Virus record (IMG/VR): IMGVR_UViG_3300009155_000051
Coordinates: 25,539 to 89,538 of that record
Source: a virus
Length of the DNA stretch: 64,000 bases
Reading direction: 5' to 3' (one strand)
Below the pieces are notes generated by a model. The model did no database searches and was not told where the DNA came from. It was given only the letters and a program-made list of their open reading frames with translations. Made by a program: the position numbers and the translations under genes. Shown here piece by piece: positions 1-60,482 of this stretch. How positions within the stretch are numbered: position 1 is the first letter of the stretch; each line of letters opens with the position of its first letter.

Positions 1-720
1 TAAAACTTCAAATTGAGTTAAACCATAATGAGTATATCTTGGTTGTGGATACATCATATACACATCTACATTATTCTCTTCTAATTCTTCAATTTCACTT
101 TCAGTCTCTTCAATAGCATCAGTTAATTGACTCACCATATCATCGTCATCAGTCTCATCATATCTTTTCTGTAACTCATCTAACTTAACTTTAAGAACTT
201 TCAACTTTTCTCTACCATCCTCATCTAAAGCATCAATTTCACCAATACTTACTAAGTTATCAAATAACGCGTGAGCCTTTTCTCCGGTCTCATCACCTTG
301 TTCTAAAGCCCACTCATCGCCATCACGAAGAGATTCTTGTTCACCAAGTTTAGCATTTAGTTCTTGTTTTTCTCTAATTCTCTCACGAGGAGAATTATGG
401 TCAGAAATATATCCCTTAACTTTCATATCACCAAGATTGGACACATTAGTTCTACTAATATTCAATGACCCATCAATATAGGCAACATTACCTAAACTAT
501 CAGTTGGAGTACTATCAAGGGTTAAGTCACCAGTAATCCATAAAGGTTTACCTTCAAACCTTTTCATTTTAGTTATCGCTTTCCCGTGATAACTACCCAA
601 TCTCATTAATTCCAAATATTCTTCCGGAGATATTTTATAATATTCCCCCTCAACTTCTTCAGTAAGTTTTTTAATATACTTGGATAATGATTTCTCGTTA
701 AGTTGTATTCTTTTATTCAT
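1..720 (-). CDS. Partial phage protein of unknown function, N-terminal 240 residues
   Basis: The frame is open from an ATG at 720 to the left edge, so only the first 240 residues are visible and the C-terminus is missing. The protein begins with a basic amphipathic stretch (MNKRIQLNEKSLSKYIKKL). A segment rich in beta-type residues follows at about 40-85, with an LTLDSTPTDSLGNV patch. An acidic, helical, probably coiled-coil region rich in E, D and K follows at about 95-210. The start is supported by a promoter-like TATTTAT box exactly four bases upstream. The N-terminal motif resembles short motifs in the proteins at 812-970 and 10913-12181, which suggests a virion or assembly role, but this is inference. 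I do not recognise a family. Confidence 0.8.
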   Translation of the reverse strand, partial: MNKRIQLNEKSLSKYIKKLTEEVEGEYYKISPEEYLELMRLGSYHGKAITKMKRFEGKPLWITGDLTLDSTPTDSLGNVAYIDGSLNISRTNVSNLGDMKVKGYISDHNSPRERIREKQELNAKLGEQESLRDGDEWALEQGDETGEKAHALFDNLVSIGEIDALDEDGREKLKVLKVKLDELQKRYDETDDDDMVSQLTDAIEETESEIEELEENNVDVYMMYPQPRYTHYGLTQFEVL

Positions 721-811
721 AATAATAAATATCAACAAAGATATAAAATATATTTACATATTACTATTATCGTTGATATTTATGGTTATAAACGTTTAAT
801 AATTTAAAATT
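721..811. promoter_or_regulatory. Divergent promoter region with a 12-bp inverted repeat
   Basis: This 91-bp gap separates divergent genes. The 12-mer GTTGATATTTAT occurs on the minus strand at 725-736 and on the plus strand at 772-783, a perfect inverted repeat with a 35-bp spacer. The minus copy ends four bases before the ATG of the leftward gene; the plus copy ends 28 bases before the rightward ATG. A second, host-type box TATCTTTG lies on the minus strand at 736-743, without a clear -33 partner. Each arm therefore looks like a promoter box, and the pair could also bind a dimeric regulator. The motif is visible; its function is inferred. Confidence 0.5.
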
Positions 812-970
812 ATGGGCTGCGGATGTAAAAACAAAGCAAATCAATCACAACCGGTACAACAATCGGGACAATCTCAACCTCAGGCACCGTCTCAGGCACC
901 ACAGCCTAAAACAGCGCCAATCCAAGAGTCAATCCGTAAAGTTGTAGAGAAATATTACAACAAAAAATAA
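812..970 (+). CDS. Small Cys/Gln/Pro-rich protein of 52 residues
   Basis: This short gene encodes 52 residues. It starts MGCGCKNK, continues with a Gln/Pro/Ser-rich linker (several QP, PSQAP and PQP units), and ends in a charged amphipathic helix (IQESIRKVVEKYYNKK). The frame is open from ATG to TAA and is followed at once by a strong intrinsic terminator, which supports a real one-gene transcript. The two cysteines near the N-terminus could bind a metal or form disulphides; this is not established. The C-terminal helix resembles the short motifs near the ends of the proteins at 1-720 and 10913-12181. Function unknown; a small virion-associated protein is one guess. Confidence 0.7.
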   Translation: MGCGCKNKANQSQPVQQSGQSQPQAPSQAPQPKTAPIQESIRKVVEKYYNKK

Positions 971-991
971 TATTTCATTATGTGAAAATTC

Positions 992-1016
992 AAAGGGACT
1001 TCGGTCCCTTTTTTTA
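992..1016 (+). terminator. Intrinsic terminator with UUCG tetraloop
   Basis: The stem AAAGGGAC / GTCCCTTT (992-999 and 1004-1011) closes a TTCG loop and runs into a T-tract. It lies 21 bases after the stop of the 52-residue gene and ends that transcript. Confidence 0.9.
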
Positions 1017-1070
1017 TTATCTATTTATTAATTAAATTATTTTCATTATTCATTGGTATAATTTAAAAAT

Positions 1071-1889: not shown

Positions 1890-1892
1890 AAA

Positions 1893-2521: not shown

Positions 2522-2523
2522 TC

Positions 2524-2844: not shown

Positions 2845-2845
2845 A

Positions 2846-4603
2846 TTATAATGGGAAAACATCATTATCATCCCAATTTTGAACTGGAACAATATTATAA
2901 TTATACGAATTTAATTGCATAATTGAATCATTTTTCCAACATAATTGACGTTCAGTAGTGTCTTTTCCGGTTTTAGTTACAGAATATCTTATTACATCTT
3001 TTGACATCCAATCAGAGAACAATTCTCTTTTTTTGAACTCACCTTTAATCTGTAAGGTATCAAACAAATCCTCATATTGGTAAATTTTATTATCCAATTT
3101 GATTAATGCGTCATCCCAACTTTCATCCAATCTATCATTACGTTTACCCAAAGTTTGATATCTTTCTAAATCAAACGTGTTATGTAGTGAAGGTAAAGTA
3201 ATACGATATTCAATTGACGCTCTCTCTTCAGTTTCTCCTTGACCTCGTCTCATAGATATCAATAAGGAATCAATTCTTCTAACATATGTCTTAACACAAT
3301 TAGATTGGAATGAGGACTCGTTGTTGTATCGTTTGGATGTTGTTAACACCTCAGGATAATATGACCCATCTTTGGTTAAGATAACCTCATTTACTTTATC
3401 CACAAACTCTTGGTTGTAGATTCTAGTAAAGTCACCATTGGTGTAATGGTTATATTTCTCCGACCAATCATAATGCTCTTGAACAAACTCATCGTGAGTT
3501 CTTGATGTCCATTTAACCGGTTCCATTTGGTCCAATAAACGATAAAATCTAAAGTGGTCTTCAATTACATTACTGTTAACTAACCCTTTTTGACATAATT
3601 TATATATCTCAAAGAAATTGGAAAACTCTTTTTTTGTTAATAACCCTTTTCCAATATTATTATGAAATGTACTTTGTTTATTATGTTCCAATAATAATTG
3701 GACAAACTCATCCGATTGATTTAAAATAAACTTCTCACCAAATATTGAACAAGCGTTATTAAAATTAAGAACACCATCAAATGATTTAACGTTATGTAAT
3801 ACCCTCTTAACTTTATCCCCCTTTAAGTTATGAACCCTCATTAAAGCATCAATATACTTATACCCACACTTCACCAAATCTTTCTTCTTTGGTTGGGGAT
3901 AGGTATTCATAAGTTCAAACCAATTGTTTGGAACTTTAATTCCTTGAGCATCCAAGTATCTTTTGTAGATTCTTTGTTCAGGAAGTAAGTCAGCATATAG
4001 TTCAGTTCCGGGAATGGCGTTAACAAAGGTTGAGATAACCTGATTAACTATTGTTGGAATATCCACTTTATCTTTATCAACTATTGAGTTGAATGATTCT
4101 CTCAAGTATCGTCTCATATTATTGATAGGGTCATTATTAAAAAGGACTCTTCTAATATTTTTACGACATTTTCTCTTCAAATGGTAGTTGTCTAATGAAC
4201 CGGTATATAACGCATTTGTTTTATAGTTGAATGTAATAAACTTACAATTAGTACTTAATCTAAACCATTTACCCGCAACACGTCTTGTTTTACTATAATT
4301 GAATACCTTGAAAGAAACTTTATCATTTTCTTTAGTCACACAGATAATCACCCTATTCAAATATAATTGAGCAAGTGGGTTCCCGTAATGTTCTACAAAT
4401 TTTTCTTCTGTATCGTAATCCGCATTAAAAGTATAGTCACCCCAAGGCGTATAACTTGTATGCCTTCCTGAACTTAAACTAGTTTCAATCGTTCCCCAAA
4501 AATCATCCTCAACCTCTTTTTTAAGAGGACGAATAGGATTGGTATCCAAGTATTCAGACACTTGATACTTCTTTACGGTATAGTTAAATAATTCTTCTTT
4601 CAT
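2846..4603 (-). CDS. PcfJ-like protein
   Basis: A 585-residue protein. The C-terminal third has the PcfJ-type core: FQSNCVKTYV followed by an arginine-rich strand and ASIEYRI, then a strand-helix-strand tail. This pattern is found in PcfJ-like proteins of conjugative plasmids and phages, whose biochemical role is not known. The N-terminal part is basic, with many aromatic residues and a KRKCRKNIRR patch at about 150, so nucleic-acid binding is possible. I place the start at the ATG at 4603; a TTG at 4624 would extend the frame but lies inside the promoter box. The gene has its own host-type promoter 18 bases upstream and heads the thioredoxin/glutaredoxin operon. Confidence 0.6.
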   Translation of the reverse strand: MKEELFNYTVKKYQVSEYLDTNPIRPLKKEVEDDFWGTIETSLSSGRHTSYTPWGDYTFNADYDTEEKFVEHYGNPLAQLYLNRVIICVTKENDKVSFKVFNYSKTRRVAGKWFRLSTNCKFITFNYKTNALYTGSLDNYHLKRKCRKNIRRVLFNNDPINNMRRYLRESFNSIVDKDKVDIPTIVNQVISTFVNAIPGTELYADLLPEQRIYKRYLDAQGIKVPNNWFELMNTYPQPKKKDLVKCGYKYIDALMRVHNLKGDKVKRVLHNVKSFDGVLNFNNACSIFGEKFILNQSDEFVQLLLEHNKQSTFHNNIGKGLLTKKEFSNFFEIYKLCQKGLVNSNVIEDHFRFYRLLDQMEPVKWTSRTHDEFVQEHYDWSEKYNHYTNGDFTRIYNQEFVDKVNEVILTKDGSYYPEVLTTSKRYNNESSFQSNCVKTYVRRIDSLLISMRRGQGETEERASIEYRITLPSLHNTFDLERYQTLGKRNDRLDESWDDALIKLDNKIYQYEDLFDTLQIKGEFKKRELFSDWMSKDVIRYSVTKTGKDTTERQLCWKNDSIMQLNSYNYNIVPVQNWDDNDVFPL

Positions 4604-4621: not shown

Positions 4622-4653
4622 CAAAAGTAAGACATTAAATTTGAATATACAAA
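4622..4653 (-). promoter_or_regulatory. Bacteroidota-type promoter of the PcfJ-like operon
   Basis: On the minus strand TTTG (4653-4650), 20 bases, then TACTTTTG (4629-4622). This matches the Bacteroidota housekeeping consensus TTTG-N19/20-TAnnTTTG. The start codon at 4603 follows 18 bases later. Confidence 0.7.
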
Positions 4654-4966: not shown

Positions 4967-6325
4967 CTAATTTAAATAATAGAATCCCATACCTTCATCA
5001 TCAAGTCTATCTCGTAAACCTTGTGGTATATTAATGTTTGGATTAACATCTTTTAAGTTAATAAACGCAAGATTTGGTAATTCTTTAATACATTCAGGTA
5101 AAGATTGTAAATCTTTATTACCCGGAAGAGCTAAGAAATTCAAATCTTTTAACTGACAAATTGTATCAGGTAATGTTTTTGCAATGTTTTGTAACATTAA
5201 CGCTTCTAAGTTTTTAAATCTACCAATAGATGTTGGAACCTCTAACGCAATTCTTTCTTGACTCTTATTATTGATTAACAATTTAGTAATTGTATCAGGT
5301 AAAGACTCAAATAATTCATCAAAACCATATAGAGCAATGAATTTACCTGAAGCACTATCCGGATAGTTAATCTCAACAATATCACCACCACCACTTGTTA
5401 AACCTTTAGCAAATTGAGGTTTAAAATATTCCTTAAGTTCCGCACCTCTACCATTTAAGAACTCTACTAAATTAATTCCTCTATCTCTTCTGTCCATATA
5501 TTGATTAGATGGGAAGTGGAATTGATATCTTTCTTTAGGTAACCCTGTTTTTTTACCAAACTCTGTTGAACTATTAGGTAGTATTACATAATACGGACCA
5601 TCTTTGATATAGTGACTAAAATAGGTACCATCAAGTTTTGATGTACACCAATTAGTTTCATCATTCTCATCTCTAGTATCATAATAACCACCAAAATAAG
5701 CACCAGCGTTTTTACCTTCGTCATTATTTTCAGTAATTTTTACAATTGTCCAATCAGGTGTAACAATTTCAATATTTGAACCGGGATATTGATATGGATT
5801 TTCTTTTGTAATTCTTTCTTCTTTAGATGATTTAGAATCTTTAGATAATTTAAATTCATCAACAGCTAAAGATAATGTTGCCGGTGTATATTTTGCAATA
5901 TCTCTTTCACCTTCAGGTAATCTACCTTTAAATCTTTCAAATTTTAATAAATCAACATTTATTTTATCCATATCTTCTATGAATAAACGTCTATATTCTT
6001 GAGCCGCTCTCTTATATTCAGGTGTACCCACCTCATATTCCAATTTAGGTTGAACAAAGTTTCTCAACATCCATTGAACATATTTACCAACTTTAACTTT
6101 TGACATTTCTTCAAAAGTTGCACCTTCTTTATTAAACCCTTGAGGAGCTTTAGTATCAGGGTCTCCAAATATTATATTTTTTAATGTGTCAAAATCCATA
6201 ATACCTTTTACCGGTCTTCCTGTCTCACTCTTTGCTTTTGGGTTTGGTTTAACAAACTTGTCGTAAAATAATTGTAAACGTGCGTTTTCAGTTATTAAAT
6301 TAGATAGTAATGATGTAATTTTCAT
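4967..6325 (-). CDS. Leucine-rich-repeat protein with conserved phage N-terminal region
   Basis: A 452-residue protein with two parts. Residues 1-320 include an opening amphipathic motif (ITSLLSNLITENARLQLF), a charged helical region and a central NWCTS motif followed by YYVILP and RYQFHFPSNQYMD. This resembles a domain of unknown function that I associate with large marine phages; the recall is not verified. Residues 335-445 are at least four leucine-rich repeats with the LPDTI...L..L..L.L.N pattern (SLPDTITKL, TLPDTICQL, SLPECIKEL). LRR domains bind proteins, so this may recognise a host or virion protein. A host-type promoter lies 66 bases upstream and a TATTTAT box (6342-6348) 16 bases upstream, so it may be read in two phases. 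Confidence 0.75.
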   Translation of the reverse strand: MKITSLLSNLITENARLQLFYDKFVKPNPKAKSETGRPVKGIMDFDTLKNIIFGDPDTKAPQGFNKEGATFEEMSKVKVGKYVQWMLRNFVQPKLEYEVGTPEYKRAAQEYRRLFIEDMDKINVDLLKFERFKGRLPEGERDIAKYTPATLSLAVDEFKLSKDSKSSKEERITKENPYQYPGSNIEIVTPDWTIVKITENNDEGKNAGAYFGGYYDTRDENDETNWCTSKLDGTYFSHYIKDGPYYVILPNSSTEFGKKTGLPKERYQFHFPSNQYMDRRDRGINLVEFLNGRGAELKEYFKPQFAKGLTSGGGDIVEINYPDSASGKFIALYGFDELFESLPDTITKLLINNKSQERIALEVPTSIGRFKNLEALMLQNIAKTLPDTICQLKDLNFLALPGNKDLQSLPECIKELPNLAFINLKDVNPNINIPQGLRDRLDDEGMGFYYLN

Positions 6326-6390
6326 TTTAATTGTTTTAATTATAAATATTCGTTTTTTGTAAATAATTCGCTAAACTTTATTCAAGAGTA

Positions 6391-6421
6391 CAAAGATAAT
6401 ACTAATTATCAACAATCCAAA
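6391..6421 (-). promoter_or_regulatory. Bacteroidota-type promoter upstream of the LRR gene
   Basis: On the minus strand TTTG (6421-6418), 19 bases, TATCTTTG (6398-6391). It follows directly on the stop codon of the methylase gene. A TATTTAT box at 6342-6348, nearer the start codon, is a possible second promoter. Confidence 0.7.
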
Positions 6422-7270: not shown

Positions 7271-7368
7271 AATTTCTTTTTTATAAAGTATAAGAAATAA
7301 AAAGTGAAAAAGCAACTTTCTCTTTCAAATATTTTTAACTATATTTATTTTAAATTAAATTTATAACT

Positions 7369-7596
7369 ATGGAAACTGTAGAAGGAGAAATCATTGACGT
7401 AACGGAAATAAACAAAAACGTTGTACCTGAACCCCCTAAAAAAAATTGTAAAACTTGTAAACAAGGTAAAGAAGCTGTATCGTCTGTTAGACAAACTCAA
7501 AAAATACTAGTATTCGCATCTCTTTATTTTTTATTTGCCGGTATATATGGTACAATAAAATTGATTAAGGATATTCTACATTATTTTGGATATTAA
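7369..7596 (+). CDS. Small membrane protein, 75 residues
   Basis: The protein has an acidic N-terminus (METVEGEIIDVTE), a short NCKTCKQGK motif with a CxxC pair at residues 27-30, and one strong membrane segment at about 46-68 (ILVFASLYFLFAGIYGTIKLI). The order suggests an N-terminal soluble tail anchored in the inner membrane. A TATATTTAT box (7340-7348) lies 20 bases before the start. The stop codon overlaps that of the convergent dnaJ gene, with no terminator between. No family recognised; the acidic N-terminus is reminiscent of other small phage membrane proteins. Confidence 0.75.
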   Translation: METVEGEIIDVTEINKNVVPEPPKKNCKTCKQGKEAVSSVRQTQKILVFASLYFLFAGIYGTIKLIKDILHYFGY

Positions 7597-9949: not shown

Positions 9950-9951
9950 AA

Positions 9952-10912: not shown

Positions 10913-12181
10913 TTATTGAGTTATTTGATTATAACCCATCAACGATTTCATTCTATTAAATTCTTCACTAATTAATTTTTCTTGTTTTTCATTACTCTCA
11001 GTTTTAAGATGTAACCCATTTCCCGATTCTTGACCTGTTTTATCACTTATAACAGGTTGAGGGGCTTTATTGTATGCCGCTCTTTTAGCTTTATTGTACG
11101 CACCTTTCTTACGAGTTTTATTTAATTTTTTATTCTCATCAGTTTCAACAGCGTTAGCCCATTCTGAATTATTTCCAGTTTTTGATGAACCTTCAATATT
11201 ATTATCCATCCACTCTTCATTAGGATGAATTTCATCATAATCTAAAGTTTGCATCCCAGGTCTTAAGTAATCGTCAATAAATTCTTTACCATCGTCAGAA
11301 AGTTCATAAGCAGTTTTCTTCATTTTTTCTAACTCTCCATTCCCTTTAGGGAATACTTTTGGTTCCATTGAATATTCACCTTTAGAACCGTCTTTAAGGT
11401 AATCTTTCATTTTTTTAGTAACATCTTTAATGTAATCGTCATTTTCTTTACCAGAACCTTTGTGAGCCTTCTCATACGCCGAATAACCTTTAGGTGTTCC
11501 ACCAATTGGTTTTAATTTTGTGTCGGTTGTTTTTTCAATCGCTTCAGTTTTTTGTTCTTTAACAATTCTTTCAATCATAGATACTAATTCACTTTCAGTT
11601 AATCTATAAGATTCTTTAACCTGATATTCTTTACCATCCACTTCAAATGAATCTTCCCCACTTTTTTTAGCGTTAGCCAAGGCCCCTGAAAACGCATTAC
11701 CTTCGTCTGTTTCAGTTTTTTTACCCTTTCTTAACATCTTAAAATCTTCAGCATCAATCTTATTGTTTTTGTTTCTATCCAATCTTTTTTGACGACCTTT
11801 TAAAGATTCGTTCATATCTGAACCACAGAATTTTAACGTTCTTTCATCTTCAGGACCAAAATTATCCATATGATATTTACAAGCATCTTCATTTTTAGAA
11901 TCTAACTCTTCATTATCCGAATCACCTAACACCATATCTTCTTGGACATAGTCAAATTCTTCTGAATTATCAATGTCTTTAACATCGTAGATACCTTCTT
12001 CCATATCACCACTTTTATATCCACACTCATTACATTCACCTTCATACATTGTCCCACCGCATTCGCAAACACTACCGGATTCCGTTAATTTAGAAACAAT
12101 ATTATCGGCTCTATCTTCTAAAGTTTCTTTTAAAATTTTAGATACCAAATTGTCTAAGTAAGTACTATTTAATTTTTTCAT
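10913..12181 (-). CDS. Large acidic virion/assembly-type protein with zinc-ribbon and EF-hand-like motifs
   Basis: A 422-residue, highly charged, low-complexity protein. It opens with an amphipathic helix (LDNLVSKILKETLEDRAD), then a four-cysteine ribbon at about 39-53 (CECGGTMYEGECNECGY). A calcium-loop-like motif follows at about 133-144 (DRNKNNKIDAED, acidic or Asn at loop positions 1, 3, 5, 9 and 12). Next come a second amphipathic motif (LTESELVSMIERIVKEQ) and a long Lys/Glu/Asn-rich stretch. The final motif is ISEEFNRMKSLMGY. The combination suggests a structural or scaffold protein with repeated peptide tags; no family name is secure. A TATTTAT box (12196-12202) lies 14 bases upstream. 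A terminator-like hairpin follows. Confidence 0.75.
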   Translation of the reverse strand: MKKLNSTYLDNLVSKILKETLEDRADNIVSKLTESGSVCECGGTMYEGECNECGYKSGDMEEGIYDVKDIDNSEEFDYVQEDMVLGDSDNEELDSKNEDACKYHMDNFGPEDERTLKFCGSDMNESLKGRQKRLDRNKNNKIDAEDFKMLRKGKKTETDEGNAFSGALANAKKSGEDSFEVDGKEYQVKESYRLTESELVSMIERIVKEQKTEAIEKTTDTKLKPIGGTPKGYSAYEKAHKGSGKENDDYIKDVTKKMKDYLKDGSKGEYSMEPKVFPKGNGELEKMKKTAYELSDDGKEFIDDYLRPGMQTLDYDEIHPNEEWMDNNIEGSSKTGNNSEWANAVETDENKKLNKTRKKGAYNKAKRAAYNKAPQPVISDKTGQESGNGLHLKTESNEKQEKLISEEFNRMKSLMGYNQITQ

Positions 12182-12217
12182 TTTTCTTTTTTATTATAAA
12201 TATATTAATCTTCAAGT

Positions 12218-16139: not shown

Positions 16140-16404
16140 TAGATATTTTACTTATTTCTTGGTCAATTTGAGTTTGTCTTGTAACATCTAATATTTTTCT
16201 ATCAGACGCTTGAATAGCTCTTTTCTCAGATTTAAGACCTTCAATCTTTATTTCTCTACGAAGTTTAACTGATAATGAATCAACACTATCATTAACGTCT
16301 TGGACTTTTGAATTTGTACTACAAGTCTTAAAAAATGTAATAATTACTAGGAAGAACATTATTCTAATACCCCAAGTATCAATAAAATTTAAAATTGGTT
16401 TCAT
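16132..16404 (-). CDS. Small membrane-anchored coiled-coil protein, 90 residues
   Basis: One membrane segment at about residues 11-27 (GIRIMFFLVIITFFKTC), then a charged helical region of about 60 residues with heptad character (VQDVNDSVDSLSVKLRREI). A cysteine directly after the hydrophobic stretch recalls a lipobox but the context (FFKTCST) is poor. The layout is that of small inner-membrane phage proteins such as Rz-type or holin-associated proteins. It heads the lysis operon and overlaps the four-helix membrane protein by 8 bases. No family recognised. Confidence 0.65.
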   Translation of the reverse strand: MKPILNFIDTWGIRIMFFLVIITFFKTCSTNSKVQDVNDSVDSLSVKLRREIKIEGLKSEKRAIQASDRKILDVTRQTQIDQEISKISND

Positions 16405-47956: not shown

Positions 47957-47970
47957 TTGATAAATATCAA
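47957..47970 (-). promoter_or_regulatory. Late-type promoter box with hairpin symmetry
   Basis: The minus strand reads TTGATATTTATCAA, containing the TGATATTTAT box, 18 bases before the ATG at 47939. Its outer arms TTGATA/TATCAA pair around TT, so an operator is also possible. Confidence 0.5.
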
Positions 47971-50010: not shown

Positions 50011-51826
50011 AATTGTCTACTATTGGTGACGCGGCTCCGTAAAGGTTTGCGTAATAATTTATGTCTCTCTCTATATAATTAGTACCTTCCGGTATAATTC
50101 TAAATGTATAATCACTATATGGATAATGAGTATTATTAAAGAATGGATAATTAACACCATTACCCTTATTATCTATAAACCCATAAGTGTATATATCCCT
50201 CCAACGAAATAAATTATCCCTTGTTGAAAAAAATGAATAATCAGGAACTCCCACAACATCTTTTGGTGACCCGGTCTCAATATAATCAGAAAAATCTCTA
50301 ATTTTTAAACCATAATGTGGTTTATAATAAAAACCAAACGGGTTAAATTGTAATCTAGTGTCTGACGATAAAACATTAAATACATTTGGGTTATATGTCA
50401 ATTTATGATAAATTTCAGAAATAACTCTCTCTTTTTGTTCATAATTATTCCATTCACAAAAATCACCATCCAACGTGTCTCCCGACATAAACGTATCAAG
50501 ATAAGTAAAAACATAAGTACTTGCCGGTGTTGGTTGAGTTTTAGTATATGTACTGATAGGAAAATTAGTGTTAGATAAATTGTTACTTAAAGACCACCAA
50601 GGTGATGGTATTCCAGGTAATACACTATCATTTAAAGGTAAGTTAAACTCATACCCTTGTTTCATACCAATATACTTATTCGGATTACTAAAACTAGTTT
50701 GCCCAAACATCCAACCAAAATAACCTTTATATAATACAGTAAAGAATAATTCAGAAACCGGTCTTTTTTGGTTATCAATTATTTTATTAATATCTATATC
50801 TCTATTAAAAGATAATGTATAAGATTGAGCACCTTCTCTAATTGAAACTCTCGCTTCACGATTTGGTGTATATCCACTACTCTCATATTTCTTCTTAGTC
50901 CCAAAAATATTTTGTTCAAACCCGGCTTTAACCAAAACCGCATCTTCAATATTTGTAATTATTTTATGTTTTCTAACATAATATGATGATAATGTCTCTA
51001 CCGGATTCTCAATGTTAATAATTCTTCTAAAAGTACCCGATGTATTATTATCAAACGTTGTACCTGTAAATCCAATATCAACAATATTAAACGTATACAT
51101 ATCACTTCCTTCAAGTCCTGTACCTAAAGAAAACACTTGATATTTATCCTCACCATTATAAGAAAAACTTAATTTAACATACTCACCTACAGTTAAGTTA
51201 TGTTTAACAGGACATCTAAACGATATCATACCTAAACCACCAATTTTTGACGAATAAAGTACAAAGGGAATACCATCTGACGCAATCCATTGAAGTGTTT
51301 GATTAGTATTGGAATCAATCGCTTGTAAAGTTTTTGTATAATCATTTTCAAACGGATAACTAAGGTAATGAGTCCAATTGTATGTGGACGCACTTTTATT
51401 AACAAATAAAATATGTTCATTTGGTGGTTGAGTATACCCCGAAAAATCATAATCTGTTCTAATAAAATCAAACTCATTATATTGGGGGAATCCTGACCAA
51501 GAAACATTAGAATTTGTTGGACAATTAAGTTTAGCAGCAGCATCCTCATTTATATATGACAAAGTTTTTTCAAATCTTTCATAGTTAGAACAGCCTGTAT
51601 ACGAATTTTTAAATAAAACTGAAAATTTACAACTAGGTCTAAAATTAGTAGATTGCTGTCTTTCATTATCATATAATGTTGCCAAGTTAATATCCAAACT
51701 TCTATCAAACTCCACGTTTTCTTTAGTTGTTTGTACAAATGGGATATTAAGACCAATATCCGTATTTGACGCTCCCTTATACGTTAAAGAACCTAAAACA
51801 ATTCTAGTGTCGTTACTATTACTCAT
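50003..51826 (-). CDS. Virion protein, 607 residues
   Basis: A large soluble protein, beta-rich, with many aromatic and Asn residues. It begins MSNSNDTRIVLGSLTYKGAS, contains stretches such as KFSVLFKNSYTGCSNYERF, VSIREGAQSYTLSFNRDIDI and ELFFTVLYKGYFGWMFGQ, and ends with YTFRIIPEGTNYIERDINYY. No named domain recognised. It starts on the last base of the 1761-residue gene and overlaps the next by 8 bases. Placement in a row of tail genes supports a baseplate component. Confidence 0.7.
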   Translation of the reverse strand: MSNSNDTRIVLGSLTYKGASNTDIGLNIPFVQTTKENVEFDRSLDINLATLYDNERQQSTNFRPSCKFSVLFKNSYTGCSNYERFEKTLSYINEDAAAKLNCPTNSNVSWSGFPQYNEFDFIRTDYDFSGYTQPPNEHILFVNKSASTYNWTHYLSYPFENDYTKTLQAIDSNTNQTLQWIASDGIPFVLYSSKIGGLGMISFRCPVKHNLTVGEYVKLSFSYNGEDKYQVFSLGTGLEGSDMYTFNIVDIGFTGTTFDNNTSGTFRRIINIENPVETLSSYYVRKHKIITNIEDAVLVKAGFEQNIFGTKKKYESSGYTPNREARVSIREGAQSYTLSFNRDIDINKIIDNQKRPVSELFFTVLYKGYFGWMFGQTSFSNPNKYIGMKQGYEFNLPLNDSVLPGIPSPWWSLSNNLSNTNFPISTYTKTQPTPASTYVFTYLDTFMSGDTLDGDFCEWNNYEQKERVISEIYHKLTYNPNVFNVLSSDTRLQFNPFGFYYKPHYGLKIRDFSDYIETGSPKDVVGVPDYSFFSTRDNLFRWRDIYTYGFIDNKGNGVNYPFFNNTHYPYSDYTFRIIPEGTNYIERDINYYANLYGAASPIVDNCE

Positions 51827-54800
51827 TAGTTTACAATATTTTCAGTATTTATCCATTTTTGAGTAAATCTATCATAAGATGACTTACCTTTTTTCAAACC
51901 AAAGAAGAAATGAAATGGTGCTCCAACGGTAACCGTATTTGGATTAGTCCAATATTGTACTTTTGGATTAATAATACCATTCGCATCTACAGCATAGATA
52001 TAACCTTTAAAATTCTTAACAGGTTGACCCGCTTGAGCCCCCATAAAATAGTCACTATTACCTTGTAATCTATCTAATGATTGGTATTGATTTGAGAAAA
52101 ATGCCGGACCATTAACCGGACCTGTTACCCAATTATCATCTTGGTCTCCAAAAATACTATGTGTATTACTTCTACCAGGACCATTTTGGTCTATATACCA
52201 CTTATAAAACGGAACAACTTGACTATAAACACCAAAGTTATTAAATGCACAAACATTAGACATATTTACTGTATCATCAATAATAGTTCTTTTTGGTGTT
52301 ATAAAATCTCTAACTTGAGTATTAGAAGAAAAGAAGATACCAATAATTGCTTTACTAGAACTCGCACCATTAAAATAAATTGGTGGTTGTGAACCCGCCG
52401 GTGGGTCAGGATAATTAGCCGTATCAAATTCCGCAACACCTAATTCAGAACTAATACCTATCATTTGAGGATAGTCGGCATCCGCCTTAAGATTTGGTCT
52501 AACACCGAAATACTTACCAATAATATTCTCCCCAATAACAATACTAATTAAACTGTCTAAGAAACTTTTATTAATCATTCTACTAATAATATGTAAATTT
52601 AAAATGTCTGAAACATCACTAAATGTTGTTGGTGCTAATTTATCCATAACATACCCATCATAGATATCGGACATAACTATTTCTTGTAAGTAATAAGTTC
52701 TTGGACCTAAATCCATCATTGTTGTTGGATATTTTAAATTAAGAGTATTTTCAACAAAATAACTACCAAAAAGAAACCCAACAATTCCACCAGGATTAGG
52801 TCTATCGGAACCAATAAATTCATTAGTACTAAATTTGTAAGGACTTGACCTATAATAAAATGTTTTTGTTTGACTATGGAAAATAATTGGCTCCTTACAA
52901 TGGTCAGATTGAGCTCTATTATTACTATCGTAGTAAGTTGAAGTTTTAAAAGGAAACGCAAATAAGGTACCGTTAATCCAATTATTGGCAAAACTATCCG
53001 ACCAAGTATTTCTACAAGCAGCAAAATTAATATTTAACCTTGACTGCCATTCCGGTTGAACACTAAATAAATCACCAACCAATGAAAAGAACGGTACTGT
53101 CCCAACTAAATAACAACCACCTCGAAAGATACTTTGACCCCAAAAATTATATGAACATCTACCTCGAGACACCGTAATTGTATCTCCGTTAGCAACATAA
53201 CAATCTAAATTAGCCGATTGAGGACAAGTAAAACTTTGAATAAGTGCACTACCCACTGAACTAGAATATGATGCCGTTTCAATTGTTGCATTACCTCCCG
53301 CGCCAGTACTCACCGGATTAGAACCCGATGTTAAACCAAAGGCAAATACACCACTTCTACTATCCATAGTATCCATATAAAAATTCTCATTAGCAAATAA
53401 CGGAAAACTAAATGTTGAGTCTGTTAAACCATTACACTTATTCCATTGCACACAAGTGGATGTTGGCAATCTATCTGACCTCATAATTATTTGTCTACCA
53501 CTAGTTCCCAATCCAAACAACATCTTAACATTTTCATTATAAGAGGGTGATAAATATAATGAAGTAACATCAATATAAGGATACGGTACTCCTGGAATAT
53601 TATTAGTGTGTGGTATGTACGGTGTTAGTGTGTTATTTTTATTTGTTCTCATAATTAAAATACCTCCACCTTCAATAATCTCATCAGGGAAATAACCTCT
53701 AGTAACACCAGTGTATGATGGTGTTAATGGTCTATCATTTGACGTTGTTCCGGTAATATTATTATGGGTATAATCAAAATAGTCACAACCAAGTATTGGT
53801 GACACAGGTAATAGAATTTCCTTAGCTTGACCCCATTCATTAGTATAATCATTATCGTCACCATCAATTCTTAACCCTGATGTTGATTGATATGAACCAC
53901 TATTAACATTTTGATTATATGGACCACACCCACCACCATTAAACGCCATTGATAAATTATCTAATGAAGAATATAATCTTGGTAAACTACTTGAGAAAGG
54001 TTTAAATAACGTAGAATCCGGTTTATAGGTATAGGAATCGTAATAAAGTTTTTGATTCAACGTTGCATATGTATCTAATGTTGTATTAGTTGACATATCC
54101 TGTCTCGTATTTTTAAACCCTCCTTGGATTGGGATATTCAAATGAAATTTAGGGTCGCCTGAAAGTGCTCCGCCTATTTGAACCGCATCTTCATTTGTAT
54201 GACCAAATAACCTACCCAAACCATATTTAACATTTACCTTAGGTGAATATGGGTCAACACCCCTAACTAAAAATACAACAACTAAATCATTATAATTTTT
54301 AATCTTACTTATAGGATTTATATATAACGGAGCCTCAGGATTTGATGAAGGATAATTACACCCATTAGCCTGAAGATGATTAATACGAATTTTATTAGAG
54401 AGATATCTCGCATTAAACGAATTCGGTAATTGTGTCACACATTGATTGGTATATGCACTATAGGTCATACCTGTTAATACTTGGAAATACTCTATATCAA
54501 TAGGGAATTTATGATAGTCTGTTGACGCAGTAATGTTTAAACCTGTATAATTTGTTGTAGTATTCCCCGACCCACTAATATGTGCGTAATTAAGGGTAAT
54601 TGAAGTTAATGGTAATGTTGTACCTGTAATTGCAAAATTTTGAAATTGATTTTGAACAGCATTAACATTTGACAAATACATATCAACATTTATATCCGCA
54701 GATGCTCTTGTATCACCTGTTAATTTAGGGTTTTGGAAAGTAATTAAAGTACCGGGTAAAAGTCTATTTAATGATTGTTTAGAACATAAAACCGCAACAA

Positions 54801-57111
54801 CATTATCAAAGTGATGGTTAGTATTATTTGGATTAAAATTAACTTTTACTCTATTAACACCACCTCCCGGATTAGGAAATCCCGGAATTGATTCATCAAA
54901 ATATTTTGCTTTAGTATTAAACAAATTCATTCTTTCAGAAAAAGTTAAACTTGTTGTAAAATTATTATAAGGGTTTGACCCGTATTGAAAAAATTGAGGA
55001 GCATTTATTCTAACATCATTTTGTACTTGTTTTGGATTGGTCTGAGGTGGAATCACGTCCCCTGTTAATAAAGCAACTGTTTGAATATAATAATCATCAC
55101 TACCACCAATTAAAGTTTTATCATATGTCTCACCTTTTGATAATTTAACCAATTGAACATAACCTGTCCCAACACAATTACCATTATGTTCTTGACTTTC
55201 ATCCTCAACACCAACATCTGCTGTAACATCTGCAGTAACCGCACTACCATCAACACCTCCTTGTTGAAGACTACAATCACACATAGAACAATCTGGGTAT
55301 AATATTAAAGGTAATTGCATTGGAGTACATTGGTCAACAACTTTCTTTTTCCACTGATTTGCAACAATAAATAATGCTGCGGAAATAGCCGCATATTTGG
55401 CAGCACTTCCTAACATCGCTAAATTTGGAGGATAAGTACCAAACGCATTAATTACTTCAAGAACCGCTGAAACGGCATAAGATGCCGCCATATATAAAAG
55501 ATAGAACCATAATATATAAACCGCTGTATATAATACGTGAAGTATAATTATTATAATCCAAACAACTGACCTAATAACTACCGATAATAAATTAAATAAC
55601 GTGTAAATAATATCAAATCTAAAATTAGCATCATTTGTTGGGAATTTATTATTTTCCGTATTACAATCGTCTTGAGATATGGCTTTAATACCAACAAAAT
55701 TATCAGGGAACAAACCCCCTCTAAATTTATCAATCATTTGGGATACAGTATAAACTTTATTATATTGCATTAAATAAAATTTATCCTCACAATTAATCGC
55801 CTCTTGAATCATATGCTGACCCATAGGGGTTGTATCACCATAATCATCCCAATCTAAACTAAATGCGTACGACTTAAATGCGTATTGAGTACCAATACCA
55901 TTATTTTTAGTTGGGTCATTACCCGTTGAATTCCAACCATATTCTTTAATATTTGGAACCAGATAATATCCACGTCTAATTGATTCACCTAATGACGGAG
56001 ATTGAGCCCATTTAACTTTAAACCTATATTTTCCTTTAGTTGGAATACCTTTATTTGGGTCGTCTGATATAACTTGTTCACCAAATTCATTAGTTATTAA
56101 ATAATCTAAATTCATTGGTACATCCAATAACCAAGCTCCATTATCATCAATAACTACACCACCCATTTCTAAGTCAAATAACTCTAAAGTAGGTCTACCC
56201 ATAGGGTCTTCCTTAATAGTCTGTCTAATCGCCAATATTTCACCGGGACTTACCGTTAAATTACATAATCCCCCGAGTTTCCATTTAGAATTACAAGATG
56301 TTCTTACAGTAGCACCATCAATATTAGAAACAAGAGACCCCATAAAAATTGAGGTTGGATTTATATTAATATTAGATTCGTTACTTAAATCAAAATCACT
56401 TCTACAAATACCTAAATTACAAACCTCAGATTGACCCCATAATGGTTCAACAACAACAGTTCTTACTAAATTAATAATTTGTGGTAATTCTCGTAAATTA
56501 GTTGATTTCTTAAATTTAGTACCGTTAACTTGAGCTTGAGTCGCAATACCCATTCTTATTAAATCTTGAGGTGATAAAGAAAATTCACCTATATCAGATA
56601 AGTCAATATCAATAGAAATGGTATGAGTACCAACCGGTACCCCAAAAATCATAAAATCCCCACTATCGTTAGTTACCGCATTATATTTAAAATATTTGTC
56701 ATAAACTTGAATAAGTGTCGGATTTGTTAAAACATCGGTTCTGTTAAAAAAAGTACCTGTAGGTACGTGATTACTATAAGATGGTTCGTAAGGTAATAAA
56801 TTATATCTATACCCGTCTTCATTAACATCACTAATTGATTGATATGGATATATCTCAGAAATGACAGAATTAAGACCATCTTCTTCTGTTAATGGAATAA
56901 ATACTGATACTTTAGCGTTTGGTAACCCAAACCCATTATTAACACTAACACGCCCAATAATAACACCATAATCTGAGCACACTCTTGTGTATATCTCACT
57001 CTGTAAAACTTTCAGAGATAATATCTCAAGATACTCAAATTCTTGGTCTATACTTACGTTTATTGACTTGTTAATACCTAAGTCCGTTCTTATTCTATAT
57101 GAATTTGGCAT
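51826..57111 (-). CDS. Giant virion protein with internal hydrophobic cluster, 1761 residues
   Basis: The largest gene of the window. The N-terminal region has an Ig or carboxypeptidase-regulatory-like module (VIIGRVSVNNGFGLPNAKVS; DSGDFMIFGVPVGTHTISID). Residues about 500-595 are strongly hydrophobic, with two to four membrane-type helices (IIYTLFNLLSVVIRSVVWII; HVLYTAVYILWFYLLYMAAS; AAISAALFIVANQW). A Cys cluster follows (CSMCDCSLQQGG), then about 1150 residues of beta-rich virion-type sequence. A hydrophobic cluster inside a structural protein suggests membrane insertion during DNA entry, or a buried oligomer core. No family recognised; it is not a typical coiled-coil tape measure. Confidence 0.75.
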   Translation of the reverse strand: MPNSYRIRTDLGINKSINVSIDQEFEYLEILSLKVLQSEIYTRVCSDYGVIIGRVSVNNGFGLPNAKVSVFIPLTEEDGLNSVISEIYPYQSISDVNEDGYRYNLLPYEPSYSNHVPTGTFFNRTDVLTNPTLIQVYDKYFKYNAVTNDSGDFMIFGVPVGTHTISIDIDLSDIGEFSLSPQDLIRMGIATQAQVNGTKFKKSTNLRELPQIINLVRTVVVEPLWGQSEVCNLGICRSDFDLSNESNININPTSIFMGSLVSNIDGATVRTSCNSKWKLGGLCNLTVSPGEILAIRQTIKEDPMGRPTLELFDLEMGGVVIDDNGAWLLDVPMNLDYLITNEFGEQVISDDPNKGIPTKGKYRFKVKWAQSPSLGESIRRGYYLVPNIKEYGWNSTGNDPTKNNGIGTQYAFKSYAFSLDWDDYGDTTPMGQHMIQEAINCEDKFYLMQYNKVYTVSQMIDKFRGGLFPDNFVGIKAISQDDCNTENNKFPTNDANFRFDIIYTLFNLLSVVIRSVVWIIIIILHVLYTAVYILWFYLLYMAASYAVSAVLEVINAFGTYPPNLAMLGSAAKYAAISAALFIVANQWKKKVVDQCTPMQLPLILYPDCSMCDCSLQQGGVDGSAVTADVTADVGVEDESQEHNGNCVGTGYVQLVKLSKGETYDKTLIGGSDDYYIQTVALLTGDVIPPQTNPKQVQNDVRINAPQFFQYGSNPYNNFTTSLTFSERMNLFNTKAKYFDESIPGFPNPGGGVNRVKVNFNPNNTNHHFDNVVAVLCSKQSLNRLLPGTLITFQNPKLTGDTRASADINVDMYLSNVNAVQNQFQNFAITGTTLPLTSITLNYAHISGSGNTTTNYTGLNITASTDYHKFPIDIEYFQVLTGMTYSAYTNQCVTQLPNSFNARYLSNKIRINHLQANGCNYPSSNPEAPLYINPISKIKNYNDLVVVFLVRGVDPYSPKVNVKYGLGRLFGHTNEDAVQIGGALSGDPKFHLNIPIQGGFKNTRQDMSTNTTLDTYATLNQKLYYDSYTYKPDSTLFKPFSSSLPRLYSSLDNLSMAFNGGGCGPYNQNVNSGSYQSTSGLRIDGDDNDYTNEWGQAKEILLPVSPILGCDYFDYTHNNITGTTSNDRPLTPSYTGVTRGYFPDEIIEGGGILIMRTNKNNTLTPYIPHTNNIPGVPYPYIDVTSLYLSPSYNENVKMLFGLGTSGRQIIMRSDRLPTSTCVQWNKCNGLTDSTFSFPLFANENFYMDTMDSRSGVFAFGLTSGSNPVSTGAGGNATIETASYSSSVGSALIQSFTCPQSANLDCYVANGDTITVSRGRCSYNFWGQSIFRGGCYLVGTVPFFSLVGDLFSVQPEWQSRLNINFAACRNTWSDSFANNWINGTLFAFPFKTSTYYDSNNRAQSDHCKEPIIFHSQTKTFYYRSSPYKFSTNEFIGSDRPNPGGIVGFLFGSYFVENTLNLKYPTTMMDLGPRTYYLQEIVMSDIYDGYVMDKLAPTTFSDVSDILNLHIISRMINKSFLDSLISIVIGENIIGKYFGVRPNLKADADYPQMIGISSELGVAEFDTANYPDPPAGSQPPIYFNGASSSKAIIGIFFSSNTQVRDFITPKRTIIDDTVNMSNVCAFNNFGVYSQVVPFYKWYIDQNGPGRSNTHSIFGDQDDNWVTGPVNGPAFFSNQYQSLDRLQGNSDYFMGAQAGQPVKNFKGYIYAVDANGIINPKVQYWTNPNTVTVGAPFHFFFGLKKGKSSYDRFTQKWINTENIVN

Positions 57112-57125: not shown

Positions 57126-57132
57126 ATAAATA
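57126..57132 (-). promoter_or_regulatory. Late-type box before the giant virion gene
   Basis: TATTTAT on the minus strand, 14 bases before the ATG at 57111. Just upstream TAGTATATAAACTA is nearly palindromic. The position matches other virion operons. Confidence 0.4.
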
Positions 57133-58134: not shown

Positions 58135-58172
58135 AAAAATAATCGTAACACATTTTTACTTAAAATAAATAA

Positions 58173-60011
58173 TTACGAGAAATTTACAGTTTTTAAATTT
58201 TTAACTCTAATATTAATATCTTTACTAGCGTATCTAATTTGGTAGACTTGGCTTGGTTCCGCAAAGATAGTATCATCAACTAACCCAATTTGTTTAGTTG
58301 CACTATCAGAATATCTTTGTGATGTTTGAGATGATGAATACTCACCACCAACTTTATTAAAGAACAATATGTCAGATAATGATATTACACCATTCTCACT
58401 TTGAATTAATCTTCTTAAATCTGATACGTTAACATTCTCACCCATTTGTCTATTAGTTGGAGCAAAAAAGTCATTAATAAGGTTTATTATTTGAGATATA
58501 ACAACCCCTTGATTTTGACTATTATCTAACACAACATCAACATTAACCCCTAAATCAATAACACTCGCAGTTTCAATAGAAACATAATCATTAATCATTC
58601 TATAATTCGATAGATAATTTGCTACGTTATTTTTTAAAGTATTAGAAACAACATTAGTTAATTTACCATTTTCATCATAAGATAACATCTGAACTTTTAT
58701 CTTATTGTTTTCTTCTGTTATTGCCACTTTAGCGGGTGCACCAAATTGTGATGGCATTGTTCTAATAATTGAATCATAATCATTAATAGTTACCGCTCTT
58801 TGTTGTGCCGAAAAGTTAAACGCCACTAAATTTCTTACTTCCTCTGTTGTTGGGTAGTTAGCCCCACCAATAGCCGCAGTTACGTTAGTACACGATAAAG
58901 AGTTAATTGTACTTGTGTTTTGAGATTGACTTGGTCCATTAACAAAGAATGAAACGGTACCAATTTGAGTAATTGCATTAACACCTAAATTACTTCCGGT
59001 ACCACCACCAATTCTATATTGTATAAATAATGTTGAATTACCCTTTAATGTACTTCCTAACGCTAAGTTATTAGAATACTTATACAAATTCAAATTATAA
59101 CCATCTCGGGCAAACTCTCTTAACTGTTCATCAGAGGATTGATTTCCACCACCAAAAGTCATTTTTAAGAAACCTTCCGGTGTAAATTCTGTTATAAATT
59201 TATCACTTGTCTCAATATATTTACCCACTTTAATTCCGGGTTGGTCAGAAACTTTAGTTGGGTCCTCAATAAAAACTCTATTATCAGCCAAAGCATTCAC
59301 CTCATACCATCTATTATCAACACCTAAAAATTCTTGGACGGGCGGCACATTTGAATATTGAGTACTATCTTTAAGTAAAACACTAGTTACCCCTAAAACA
59401 TTTTTTTCAGGTAAGAAAACCTCTAAAAATGGTCTAACATCATTAGCCGTAATAACTTTCTTAAAAACTTTAGTAATACCATTAACAACAGTTTCTCTTT
59501 TAATTATGGTATAATTAATTAATGTATTATTACCATCAAAATTTGGTATTTTTAATCTATTAGGGTACCCTTCAGCTCCAATTGGAGATGAAAAGTCAAT
59601 ATCATAAACTGTTTCAAATACCTGACCGGCACCACTCACTTGTGAACCTCTACGTAAAATCCCACAATATCTTAAATCTTCTTTATCCCCATACGCCGGA
59701 ACTGTAATAGCAAAATCAACTAAAGCAACAGACGGTCTTTGTCCCGGAACTTTTAATCCATATGTTCTTGCAATATTAAAGATTGATGACCTTTGTTGAG
59801 CATATTGTAATACCGTTTCTTGAATACTTCTATCAATATTAAATTGTATGTTATCCGTAACAGCCGCGTTTAGGTCTAATAATACTGAAAATACTCCAGC
59901 ATCATTAAAGTTATCAATTAACTCAGGGTAATAAGTTCTAGTGAAGTTTATTAACTCAGTTCTGATTGATTGGAAGTCTCTCGTAGTATACGATATTTTC
60001 TTGTTTGCCAT
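58173..60011 (-). CDS. Baseplate wedge protein, T4 gp6-like (baseplate J type)
   Basis: A 612-residue protein close to the length of T4 gp6 (660). The N-terminus, KKISYTTRDFQSIRTELINF followed by TYYPELIDNFNDAG and LNAAVTDNIQFNIDRSIQET, is the characteristic gp6/baseplate-J start. The centre includes long beta regions, and AFNFSAQQRAVTINDYDSII marks the core baseplate-J domain. In T4-type phages gp6 forms the wedge scaffold of the baseplate. It is followed on the upstream side by the gp25-like gene, four bases away, which is the common order in myoviruses. Confidence 0.88.
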   Translation of the reverse strand: MANKKISYTTRDFQSIRTELINFTRTYYPELIDNFNDAGVFSVLLDLNAAVTDNIQFNIDRSIQETVLQYAQQRSSIFNIARTYGLKVPGQRPSVALVDFAITVPAYGDKEDLRYCGILRRGSQVSGAGQVFETVYDIDFSSPIGAEGYPNRLKIPNFDGNNTLINYTIIKRETVVNGITKVFKKVITANDVRPFLEVFLPEKNVLGVTSVLLKDSTQYSNVPPVQEFLGVDNRWYEVNALADNRVFIEDPTKVSDQPGIKVGKYIETSDKFITEFTPEGFLKMTFGGGNQSSDEQLREFARDGYNLNLYKYSNNLALGSTLKGNSTLFIQYRIGGGTGSNLGVNAITQIGTVSFFVNGPSQSQNTSTINSLSCTNVTAAIGGANYPTTEEVRNLVAFNFSAQQRAVTINDYDSIIRTMPSQFGAPAKVAITEENNKIKVQMLSYDENGKLTNVVSNTLKNNVANYLSNYRMINDYVSIETASVIDLGVNVDVVLDNSQNQGVVISQIINLINDFFAPTNRQMGENVNVSDLRRLIQSENGVISLSDILFFNKVGGEYSSSQTSQRYSDSATKQIGLVDDTIFAEPSQVYQIRYASKDINIRVKNLKTVNFS

Positions 60012-60015
60012 ATTA

Positions 60016-60471
60016 TTAAATATTAATTATTACAAAATCACTAGCGTTGAATACGTCGTCAGTAATCGTATATTCTATTTTAACCTTTGCGGTATGTTCT
60101 TTAAGTCCGATTCCGGGTACTCTATAAATTCGTTCATCACCATCAATATAGGTACCTTTATCTTCTTCACCATCAGAAGCATCCGTTACATTTATATTTG
60201 TTATTGTAATGTTTGGTATATATTCTTCAACCGAAGCCCTTATTTCCGCCTCAATCTCAGAAAATGTTGGACCATCCATTGGTTCAAAAATAAACTCATA
60301 TAATCTTGTCCCAAAATTTGGCATATAATATCTTGTACCTTTTCTAGTTAATAAAAGGTGTATTAAATCAGTTCTAATCTCTTGAGTAGCCGTACTTGAA
60401 AGACTCAAATATTTTCCCTCACGAGAATCATTAAAAGGAAAATTAATCCCATATGTTCTACCATCTGCCAT
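60016..60471 (-). CDS. Baseplate wedge protein, T4 gp25-like (GPW/gp25 family)
   Basis: A 151-residue protein from the ATG at 60471 (MADGRTYGINFPFND); a possible earlier start lies inside the terminator and is rejected. The core RTDLIHLLLTRKGTRYYMPN with FGTRLYEFIFEPMD is the hallmark of gp25/lysozyme-like wedge proteins, followed by a helix (IEAEIRASVEEYIP) and strands. It is a little longer than T4 gp25 (132). It anchors the sheath to the baseplate in contractile tails. Its box TATTTAT lies four bases before the ATG. Confidence 0.93.
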   Translation of the reverse strand: MADGRTYGINFPFNDSREGKYLSLSSTATQEIRTDLIHLLLTRKGTRYYMPNFGTRLYEFIFEPMDGPTFSEIEAEIRASVEEYIPNITITNINVTDASDGEEDKGTYIDGDERIYRVPGIGLKEHTAKVKIEYTITDDVFNASDFVIINI

Positions 60472-60475
60472 AACT

Positions 60476-60482
60476 ATAAATA
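60476..60482 (-). promoter_or_regulatory. Late-type promoter box before the baseplate operon
   Basis: On the minus strand CTATATTTAT is followed by AGTT and the ATG at 60471. Flanking arms ACTATA/TATAGT pair. A second TATTTAT lies about 25 bases further upstream (60503-60509). Confidence 0.55.

Follow-up and report, generated by a model that had tools for sequence, protein, structure and literature searches.

Two kinds of promoter-like sequence stand before the operons of a 64,000-nucleotide stretch of viral DNA (hereafter the window; bases 25,539-89,538 of the 89.5-kb virus record IMGVR_UViG_3300009155_000051), and the question they raise is which sigma factor reads which. One kind is the host-type promoter, in which TTTG precedes TAnnTTTG; the other is the heptamer TATTTAT, which a preliminary description of the same DNA had placed before virion or putative virion operons and had ascribed to a Bacteroidota-type sigma factor encoded by the phage, giving a late programme without a T4-type late system. 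That factor, here called the RpoD-like sigma, is encoded in the window. From its gene content (a gp47-like phosphoesterase, a primase, gp25-like and baseplate-J-like genes, and a gp46-like gene whose match falls just below cut-off) the window looks T4-like.

Here we report that both motif classes appear, from their distribution in the DNA, to behave like promoters, and that the TATTTAT box probably has a different reader. We think it probable that TATTTAT is the -10-type element of a late promoter, used by host core RNA polymerase carrying a gp55-like phage sigma, and that much of the resulting mRNA is leaderless. The promoter would read approximately A-TATTTAT-n4-A, with an A/T-rich triplet near -26 and no -33 element, and its reader would most likely be host core RNA polymerase with a divergent gp55-like sigma that near-complete relatives encode. 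The RNA would start with the A found 11 bases on from the box's first T. Where the box stands at -11 from the ATG, this A would be that of the start codon and the mRNA would be leaderless, as predicted for about one third of these promoters in the window's clade; at other distances the leader would mostly be at least about 9 bases long. Host-type promoters would drive the primase, the operon of the RpoD-like sigma and other operons.

TATTTAT at operon starts

Gene starts were taken from our own caller, not a standard tool; a gene with an upstream gap of at least 25 bases was counted as operon-first, and the 60 bases before it were searched. The main set comprised four related genomes, namely the window's own record (G000) and G001, G002 and G003, the counts from which are not mutually independent.

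Over the whole window TATTTAT occurs 54 times (60.2 expected), not above chance, and it is rare in coding strands (23 in 62,124 nt); whole-window counts of this kind are uninformative for the promoter question. Upstream of the 27 operon-first genes of the window it occurs 16 times against 2.5 expected, a number reached by none of 1000 dinucleotide shuffles, and its reverse complement ATAAATA occurs twice in the same sequences (2.9 expected). None of 26 operon-internal genes in the window has TATTTAT upstream. The search against a shuffled background that the preliminary description had proposed therefore bears out the motif, and the enrichment recurs out of sample in the three relatives (64 vs 10.6 in G001, 96 vs 15.6 in G002, 96 vs 14.7 in G003), where ATAAATA is somewhat raised as well (23 vs 11.3, 33 vs 17.3 and 33 vs 16.2). 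An unprompted ranking of k-mers over 547 upstream regions of the four genomes placed both proposed classes at the top, TATTTAT in 257 of them against 48 expected and ATCTTTG/TATCTTTG in 55 against 0.9, and the 231 regions with neither motif yielded no third class of comparable strength. The ten numbers that had been listed for TATTTAT are gene starts, not box positions, and all ten boxes were found to end 4-28 bases before those starts.

An iterated TATTTAT matrix was also used. Having been seeded with exact TATTTAT it is circular, and the argument rests on the exact 7-mer counts. Score thresholds were set by us, at 8 for this matrix and 9 for the host-type matrix; at threshold 8 the reverse-strand control is not clean (5/49 to 21/191 upstream regions), which we think comes from the divergent genes' own boxes.

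A T4-style TATAAATA as the window's box was considered and rejected, the window having TATTTAT on the coding strand and ATAAATA at chance. In the two 50-kb stretches of T4 that were used, TATAAATA occurs 14 times against 0.8, near -35 from the ATG, and no box stands at -13..-10. The same TATAAATA is over-represented in the loci of some relatives (21 vs 4.0, 21 vs 6.0 and 14 vs 6.7), perhaps because TATTTATAAATA contains TATAAATA, though this is a guess.

Architecture of the box and predicted start sites

When the boxes of the four genomes are aligned, the logo has an A just before the box, three positions 14-16 bases upstream that are almost exclusively A or T and, 11 bases on from the first T, a conserved A (the +11 A); it shows no -33 element, a pattern that matches a short -10-only promoter lacking a -35 element. 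The reported absence of a TTTG partner thus stands. The proposed extension to TGATATTTAT has weak support; boxes are commonly preceded by an A, and GATATTTA exceeds expectation (59 vs 4.5).

The +11 A is present in 90% of the 119 boxes located at -29..-18 (against about 53% at nearby positions, nominal p 4e-18), with A at the next two positions in 85% and 88%, and in 73% of 60 boxes at -60..-30; in boxes at -13..-10 it is largely the A of the ATG by construction. Outside the window's clade it occurs in 87% of 93 distinct boxes from loci resembling those of Flavobacterium phage immuto and in 21/24 boxes of immuto itself. A first mixed logo (immuto plus loci of the phage Mel-JY01 type, 66 boxes, pattern ATATTTA), in which early and late boxes were pooled, had the +11 A in 50%.

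The distances from box to ATG fall into two modes. Among 190 boxes at -30..-10 in the four genomes, 62 stand at exactly -11, 17 at -12 or -13, 3 at -19..-14 and 108 at -30..-20. Host-type boxes have the same gap, with a peak of 17 sites at exactly -12, and as the host box is published as spanning -12..-5 (PMC9723704; this and the other cited articles as excerpted), a host-type box at -12 would place the start on the A of the ATG. Both promoter classes of the window's clade thus seem to produce mRNAs that either have no leader or have one at least about 9 bases long. The share of TATTTAT promoters predicted to be leaderless is 31/81 in G003, 27/78 in G002, 17/50 in G001 and 4/17 in G000. Published figures for the host phylum are 5.5% leaderless mRNAs in Flavobacterium psychrophilum (PMC9723704) and about 3.7% of 5' untranslated regions shorter than 10 nt in Bacteroides thetaiotaomicron (PMC7366714).

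The leaderless placement is conserved: among box-bearing orthologs (those without a box are outside these counts) the -11 offset of G003 is kept in 17/20, and boxes with a leader drift, 13/38 being unchanged. For 46 of the 62 genes with a box at -11 there is no in-frame start codon further upstream. A codon-position test of the leaderless starts found 44/80 changes at third positions (p 5.5e-5; 7 pairs, 10 of 17 having been dropped for low ungapped identity).

A second sigma factor in the relatives

When 11 relatives were searched for sigma region 2, seven gave a second, sub-threshold match in reading frames of 250-270 amino acids (aa); these seven proteins make up one family, in which identity to the G003 member is 63-95%. 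A profile built from the seven finds the gene in 10/22 records (the seven, together with G006, G017 and G021 as new finds) and in 7/7 of those of at least 250 kb, and the earlier claim that no T4-type late system is involved is not supported. Where one record has both sigma genes they lie about 120-180 kb apart, so that G000, G001, G009 and G010 are short enough to miss the second one; the phage of the window presumably carries it beyond the ends of its record.

The best PHROG match of this sigma is 'late sigma transcription factor' (E 5.4e-4). When a 42-member profile of the family was run against 354 open reading frames (ORFs) of the two T4 stretches, T4 gp55 came first (E 0.0021; next 0.23), and in Foldseek searches of both libraries the named top matches were mostly sigma factors, with one viral match. 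The indicated kinship with gp55 is weak though consistent. Relatives annotated as 'hypothetical protein' occur in immuto, Mel-JY01 and Rhodothermus phage RM378 (a short match), and a further one in the unannotated huge phage LR756508. RM378 p020 matches 79/80 loci of the family. The Mel-JY01 protein, whose nearest relatives are those of LR756508 and immuto, found no relative when used alone in a viral scan; an alignment query found them. The gp55-like gene is itself preceded by TATTTAT promoters in G002 and G003, which suggests self-amplification.

In several lineages the gp55-like gene is followed by a gene of 116-131 aa (L308:9540-9935; L393:28906-29256 in immuto; L096:18455-18835). The Mel-JY01 and immuto versions are homologous (E 4e-23), and that of the window's clade can be aligned with them, with no significant pairwise match; it could be a gp33-like co-activator. 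A long run of genes including glycosyltransferases and an aminotransferase leads to the gp55-like gene in G003 (240154-257680; L096), and immuto also has a sugar-gene cluster.

Box-bearing phages without a detected RpoD-like sigma

Were the RpoD-like sigma the reader of TATTTAT, phages lacking that factor should be box-free. Sigma70_r4 scored above cut-off in none of nine records, among them complete immuto, Mel-JY01, RM378, LR756508 and T4, and four whole parent records of the immuto-like and Mel-like loci. Sub-threshold region-4 matches occur in RM378 (the best, E 3.7e-5), LR756508, G022 and T4, and also in G002, G005 and G006. The lack of an RpoD-like match in the immuto-like and Mel-like loci themselves says little, as these are pieces of 5-21 kb. 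The upstream searches covered bases 1-150,000 of 160,410 in immuto, 1-100,000 of 129,908 in RM378, and 200 or 350 kb of the 484 kb of LR756508.

TATTTAT is nonetheless enriched in immuto (28 vs 4.8), in immuto-like loci (164 vs 31.4) and in Mel-like loci (17 vs 5.2). Mel-JY01 has ATATTTAT in 14/84 upstream regions (1.8 expected). RM378 has the variant box TTATTTAA (13 vs 0.6), followed 11-13 bases on by a run of A in 13/13 cases, four of them directly before the ATG, and LR756508 has TCTATTTA (7 vs 0.8), a possible variant box.

The strong functional test is that of immuto, in which block borders were drawn by us from annotation tables (small genes at 60-78.2 kb; virion genes at 78.2-104.4 and 117.6-150 kb). 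A box within 80 bases precedes 16/21 units of the virion blocks (terminase, portal, sheath, tube, fibres) as against 2/26 units of the small-gene block (p 1.8e-6) and 9/29 others; TATTTAG stands in 16/26 small-gene units. For the window's clade, few annotated genes tie the box to virion functions, namely the tail sheath gene and, in the window only, a gp25-like gene; late timing in the phage of the window is presumed.

Separate observations were made in three of these phages. In immuto (L393:10988-26244) another signal, approximately TATATTTAGGTATCAATAATTAAAAC with an upstream GTTGC, stands before many small genes. In RM378 (L396:14414-14442) divergent genes flank one palindromic box, TTTTTATTTAAATAAAAA, perhaps a promoter in each direction. 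Mel-JY01 (PP395634; L301, L302, L307, L308) is labelled a Microcystis phage, and some of its upstream regions have Bacteroidota-type promoters (TTGCATA...TATATTTG); its true host may be a Bacteroidota companion.

Alternative readers and alternative roles

The RpoD-like sigma (16475-17275, minus strand, 266 aa) has Sigma70 regions 2 and 4 above curated cut-offs (Pfam Sigma70_r2 1.4e-16, r4 1.3e-15), with region 1.2 just below. The best 80 of its 342 viral relatives are 79 other viral contigs at 76-91% identity, some of them of 200-322 kb, and one identical copy; the best 80 of 594 cellular matches (38-44% identity) are of RpoD type and come mostly from Bacteroidota and neighbouring groups. In an alignment with 11 of these 80 host RpoD-type proteins, regions 2.3/2.4 (FISYAVWW-KQSIL) and 4.2 (NLTKERVRQIKEKAL) closely match, and the conservation of these -10-reading and 4.2 helices makes host-type promoters its natural target. 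Those promoters are plentiful: the window has 13 copies of TTTG-N18..21-TAnnTTTG, counting those inside genes, against 3.5 expected (0/100 shuffles reach 13), and TTTG-N17..21-TAnnTTTG occurs 7, 12, 21 and 19 times in G000, G001, G002 and G003 against 0.1-0.7 in mononucleotide shuffles. Their spacing, with TTTG about 19-20 bases before TAnnTTTG, is that of the Bacteroidota primary sigma, which TATTTAT does not share. Most likely, then, the RpoD-like sigma reads the host-type class.

That the same factor, with changed specificity, reads TATTTAT is unlikely. It has in its favour that the gene is in the window, behind a host-type box, and that it would explain how the gp55-like operon, itself behind TATTTAT, is first switched on. 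Its promoter-reading helices, however, closely match those of host RpoD-type proteins, a factor whose region 4.2 is intact should rely on a -33 element, of which TATTTAT promoters show no trace, and immuto, Mel-JY01 and RM378 have boxes without a detected RpoD-like sigma. Of the sigma switch first envisaged, the two classes and a box that is phage-specific and has no -33 partner agree with the data, and the assignment of the RpoD-like sigma to that box is unsupported.

It is very unlikely that a host sigma, primary or alternative, reads TATTTAT and makes a phage sigma unnecessary. The box does overlap the position of the host -7 box, and F. psychrophilum has minor motifs unlike TAnnTTTG (PMC9723704). 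The excerpts of that article name no TATTTAT-like motif, however, and TATTTAT is not enriched in 182 upstream regions of host rpoD loci (5 vs 4.3; G+C 0.43, a small sample) or in Prevotella phage LakA1 (8 vs 9.4). LakA1 may use an altered genetic code, and its gene calls are therefore rough.

We regard it as highly improbable that TATTTAT acts ahead of start codons in translation or RNA processing and not as a promoter, a role that would account for its tie to gene starts and for the mode fixed at -11 from the ATG. Before operon-internal genes of the four genomes matrix boxes are rare (0/46, 2/158, 1/169 and 1/116) and the exact 7-mer is at chance (0, 4, 4 and 5 vs 1.4, 3.8, 3.9 and 3.1); moreover, there are two separate distance modes, and the +11 A is kept at any distance from the ATG, both in the window's clade and in immuto. 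Chance in A+T-rich intergenic DNA, with which a whole-window count at expectation would agree, is refuted by the strand and position controls, the dinucleotide shuffles of the same upstream regions and the further data sets.

The reading of TATTTAT as a late promoter served by a gp55-like sigma has, beyond the mutual dependence of the four genomes' counts, a number of observations against it. The gp55-like gene was not found by the profile search in the window's own 89.5-kb record. Its kinship with gp55 is low by hhalign (probability 5.6%, E 0.0069); Pfam matches are sub-threshold, with RNaseH_C outscoring the sigma match; the 'late sigma' PHROG went unmatched for 3/4 further family members; and Foldseek returned no PDB match below E 0.001 for its structural model (predicted local distance difference test, pLDDT, 68). 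The first supply of the factor is unexplained if its gene lies behind its own box: host-type candidates in the stretches scanned are weak and intragenic in G003 (three, scores 11.5-13.2) and absent in G002. No gp45 clamp scored above cut-off in any of 12 records, and another model matched only T4 of 8; the gp45 models miss Mel-JY01 too, which has annotated clamp-loader genes.

Other such points concern the box. T4 itself shows TATTTAT at 8 vs 2.3, and LR756508 has a gp55-like relative without TATTTAT enrichment (2 vs 1.9; 6 in 217 upstream regions). Mel-JY01 does not conserve the +11 A (6/18), which is found in just 9/15 boxes of Mel-like loci. The empty zone at -19..-14 is confined to the window's clade, 17/164 boxes of immuto-like loci falling there and RM378 boxes lying mostly at -21..-14. 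No box was flagged at the G003 gene corresponding to the gp25-like gene of the window (168505-169008), and a DnaB-like helicase is also boxed, so that 'late' may be 'middle plus late'.

Comparison with known systems and implications

The closest parallel is T4 late transcription (gp55 sigma, gp33, gp45 clamp), whose promoters, lying before virion genes, have a -10-only box that A/T-rich DNA follows and lack a -35 element (PMC2988020; PMC1524935). The present system shares a -10-only box, followed by A/T-rich DNA, upstream of virion genes and, in the relatives, a phage sigma with weak region-2 similarity to gp55. It differs in the box (TATTTAT rather than TATAAATA at -13..-6), in its sigma (about 249 aa, the model showing additional helices at the C-terminus, as against the 185 aa of T4 gp55), in the many boxes placed for leaderless mRNA where those of T4 lie near -35 from the ATG, and in having an additional RpoD-like sigma and no gp45 detected. 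Divergent pairs of gp55 and box are known inside the T4 family, as in Aeh1 with CTAAATA (PMC1524935).

The host-type class resembles the promoters of the Bacteroidota primary sigma (sigma-ABfr/sigma-A), with TTTG and TAnnTTTG (PMC7366714; PMC9723704), unlike the TATTTAT class, which has neither TTTG element. Immuto, Mel-JY01 and RM378 share gp55-like relatives and a TATTTA-core box, and differ in having no RpoD-like sigma above cut-off and few leaderless placements. Jumbo phages with multisubunit RNA polymerases (phiKZ, AR9) are likewise large phages with a promoter class of their own; here Rpb2_6 was unmatched in 10/10 records, although that model may miss the most divergent subunits.

In the open-access literature, as partially covered, no report of a TATTTAT box or of gp55 in these phages was found. 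We consider it rather probable that T4-like phages of Bacteroidota and Rhodothermus use a deep, unnamed branch of gp55-type sigma factors that reads a TATTTA-core late box, and that in the window's jumbo-phage clade promoters of both classes are positioned for no leader or for one at least about 9 bases long, with about one third of late units leaderless. If so, the leaderless share would be many times the few per cent of the two host-phylum species, and the principle of T4 late transcription would hold, under an altered promoter code, for phages of another bacterial phylum as well. Leaderless translation could then be studied in a simple natural setting, in bacteria that are described as lacking Shine-Dalgarno sequences (PMC9723704). 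'Hypothetical proteins' of cultured phages, such as immuto gp118, would acquire a function, and for many uncultured phages the sequence by itself would be enough to recognise late genes.

Sites in the window

The host-like sites and TATCTTTG boxes were all found where the preliminary description had put them. On the minus strand, the promoter at 4622-4653 (TTTG-N20-TAnnTTTG) precedes a 585-aa gene (2846-4603) and lies at -26 in four genomes. That at 6391-6421 (minus) stands in tandem with a TATTTAT box at 6342-6348 (minus), the latter at -23 of a leucine-rich repeat gene (4967-6325) and at -23/-24 in four genomes; the tandem is kept in all four. At 20344-20375 (minus) the -7 box begins 12 bases before the ATG at 20339, and the mRNA is predicted to be leaderless. 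The primase gene (26729-27628), identified by DNAG_N and, on its G003 ortholog, by phrog_47, has its host-type promoter at 27634-27664 (minus), at -13 from the ATG and at -12/-13 in four genomes. The TATCTTTG box at 17884-17891 (minus) lies upstream of the operon of 17277-17852 and the RpoD-like sigma; its score is under threshold, and the orthologous operons of G001, G002 and G003 have a host-type site at -39. The other, a -7 box at 736-743 (minus), is upstream of a 453-aa gene with its ATG at 720.

This 453-aa gene also has a TATTTAT box at 725-731 (minus), 11 bases before the ATG and at -11 in all four genomes, from which a leaderless mRNA is predicted; its protein is 62-73% identical to that of G003, whose ortholog matches phrog_530 (head protease) weakly (E 1.4e-6, no single stretch passing). 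Leaderless mRNAs are likewise predicted from the boxes at 32129-32135 (minus; 60-aa ORF, 11 bases before the ATG at 32124), 35702-35708 (plus; -11 of a 902-aa gene, 35713-38421) and 60476-60482 (minus; -11 of the gp25-like baseplate gene with its ATG at 60471, GPW_gp25 E 3.1e-12), the last with a second box at 60503-60509. No box was flagged at the G003 gene (146768) that matches the 902-aa gene in gene order.

Boxes predicted to leave a leader are found on the plus strand at 777-783 (35 bases before the ATG at 812 of a small ORF outside our gene calls), 7342-7348 (-27 of a small ORF, 7369-7596; below the matrix threshold), 27691-27697 (-26 of 27717, divergent from the primase promoter) and 32212-32218 (-24 of a 708-aa gene, 32236-34362). 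On the minus strand they lie at 12196-12202 (-21 of a 422-aa gene, 10913-12181; -21/-22 in four genomes), 16452-16458 (-54 of the gene at 16132-16404, just downstream of the RpoD-like sigma gene; -54/-55 in four genomes), 47960-47966 (-27 of 47031-47939) and 57126-57132 (-21 of a 1761-aa gene, 51826-57111, 42-48% identical to that of G003; -21/-22 in four genomes). The boxes beginning at 6342, 16452 and 32129 were missing from the preliminary description's list. For the genes it had named 'methylase' and 'PcfJ-like', no Pfam or PHROG family was matched at E 0.001. Between 27717 and 40089 the window encodes, on both strands, large putative surface proteins rich in Cys and PTPT.

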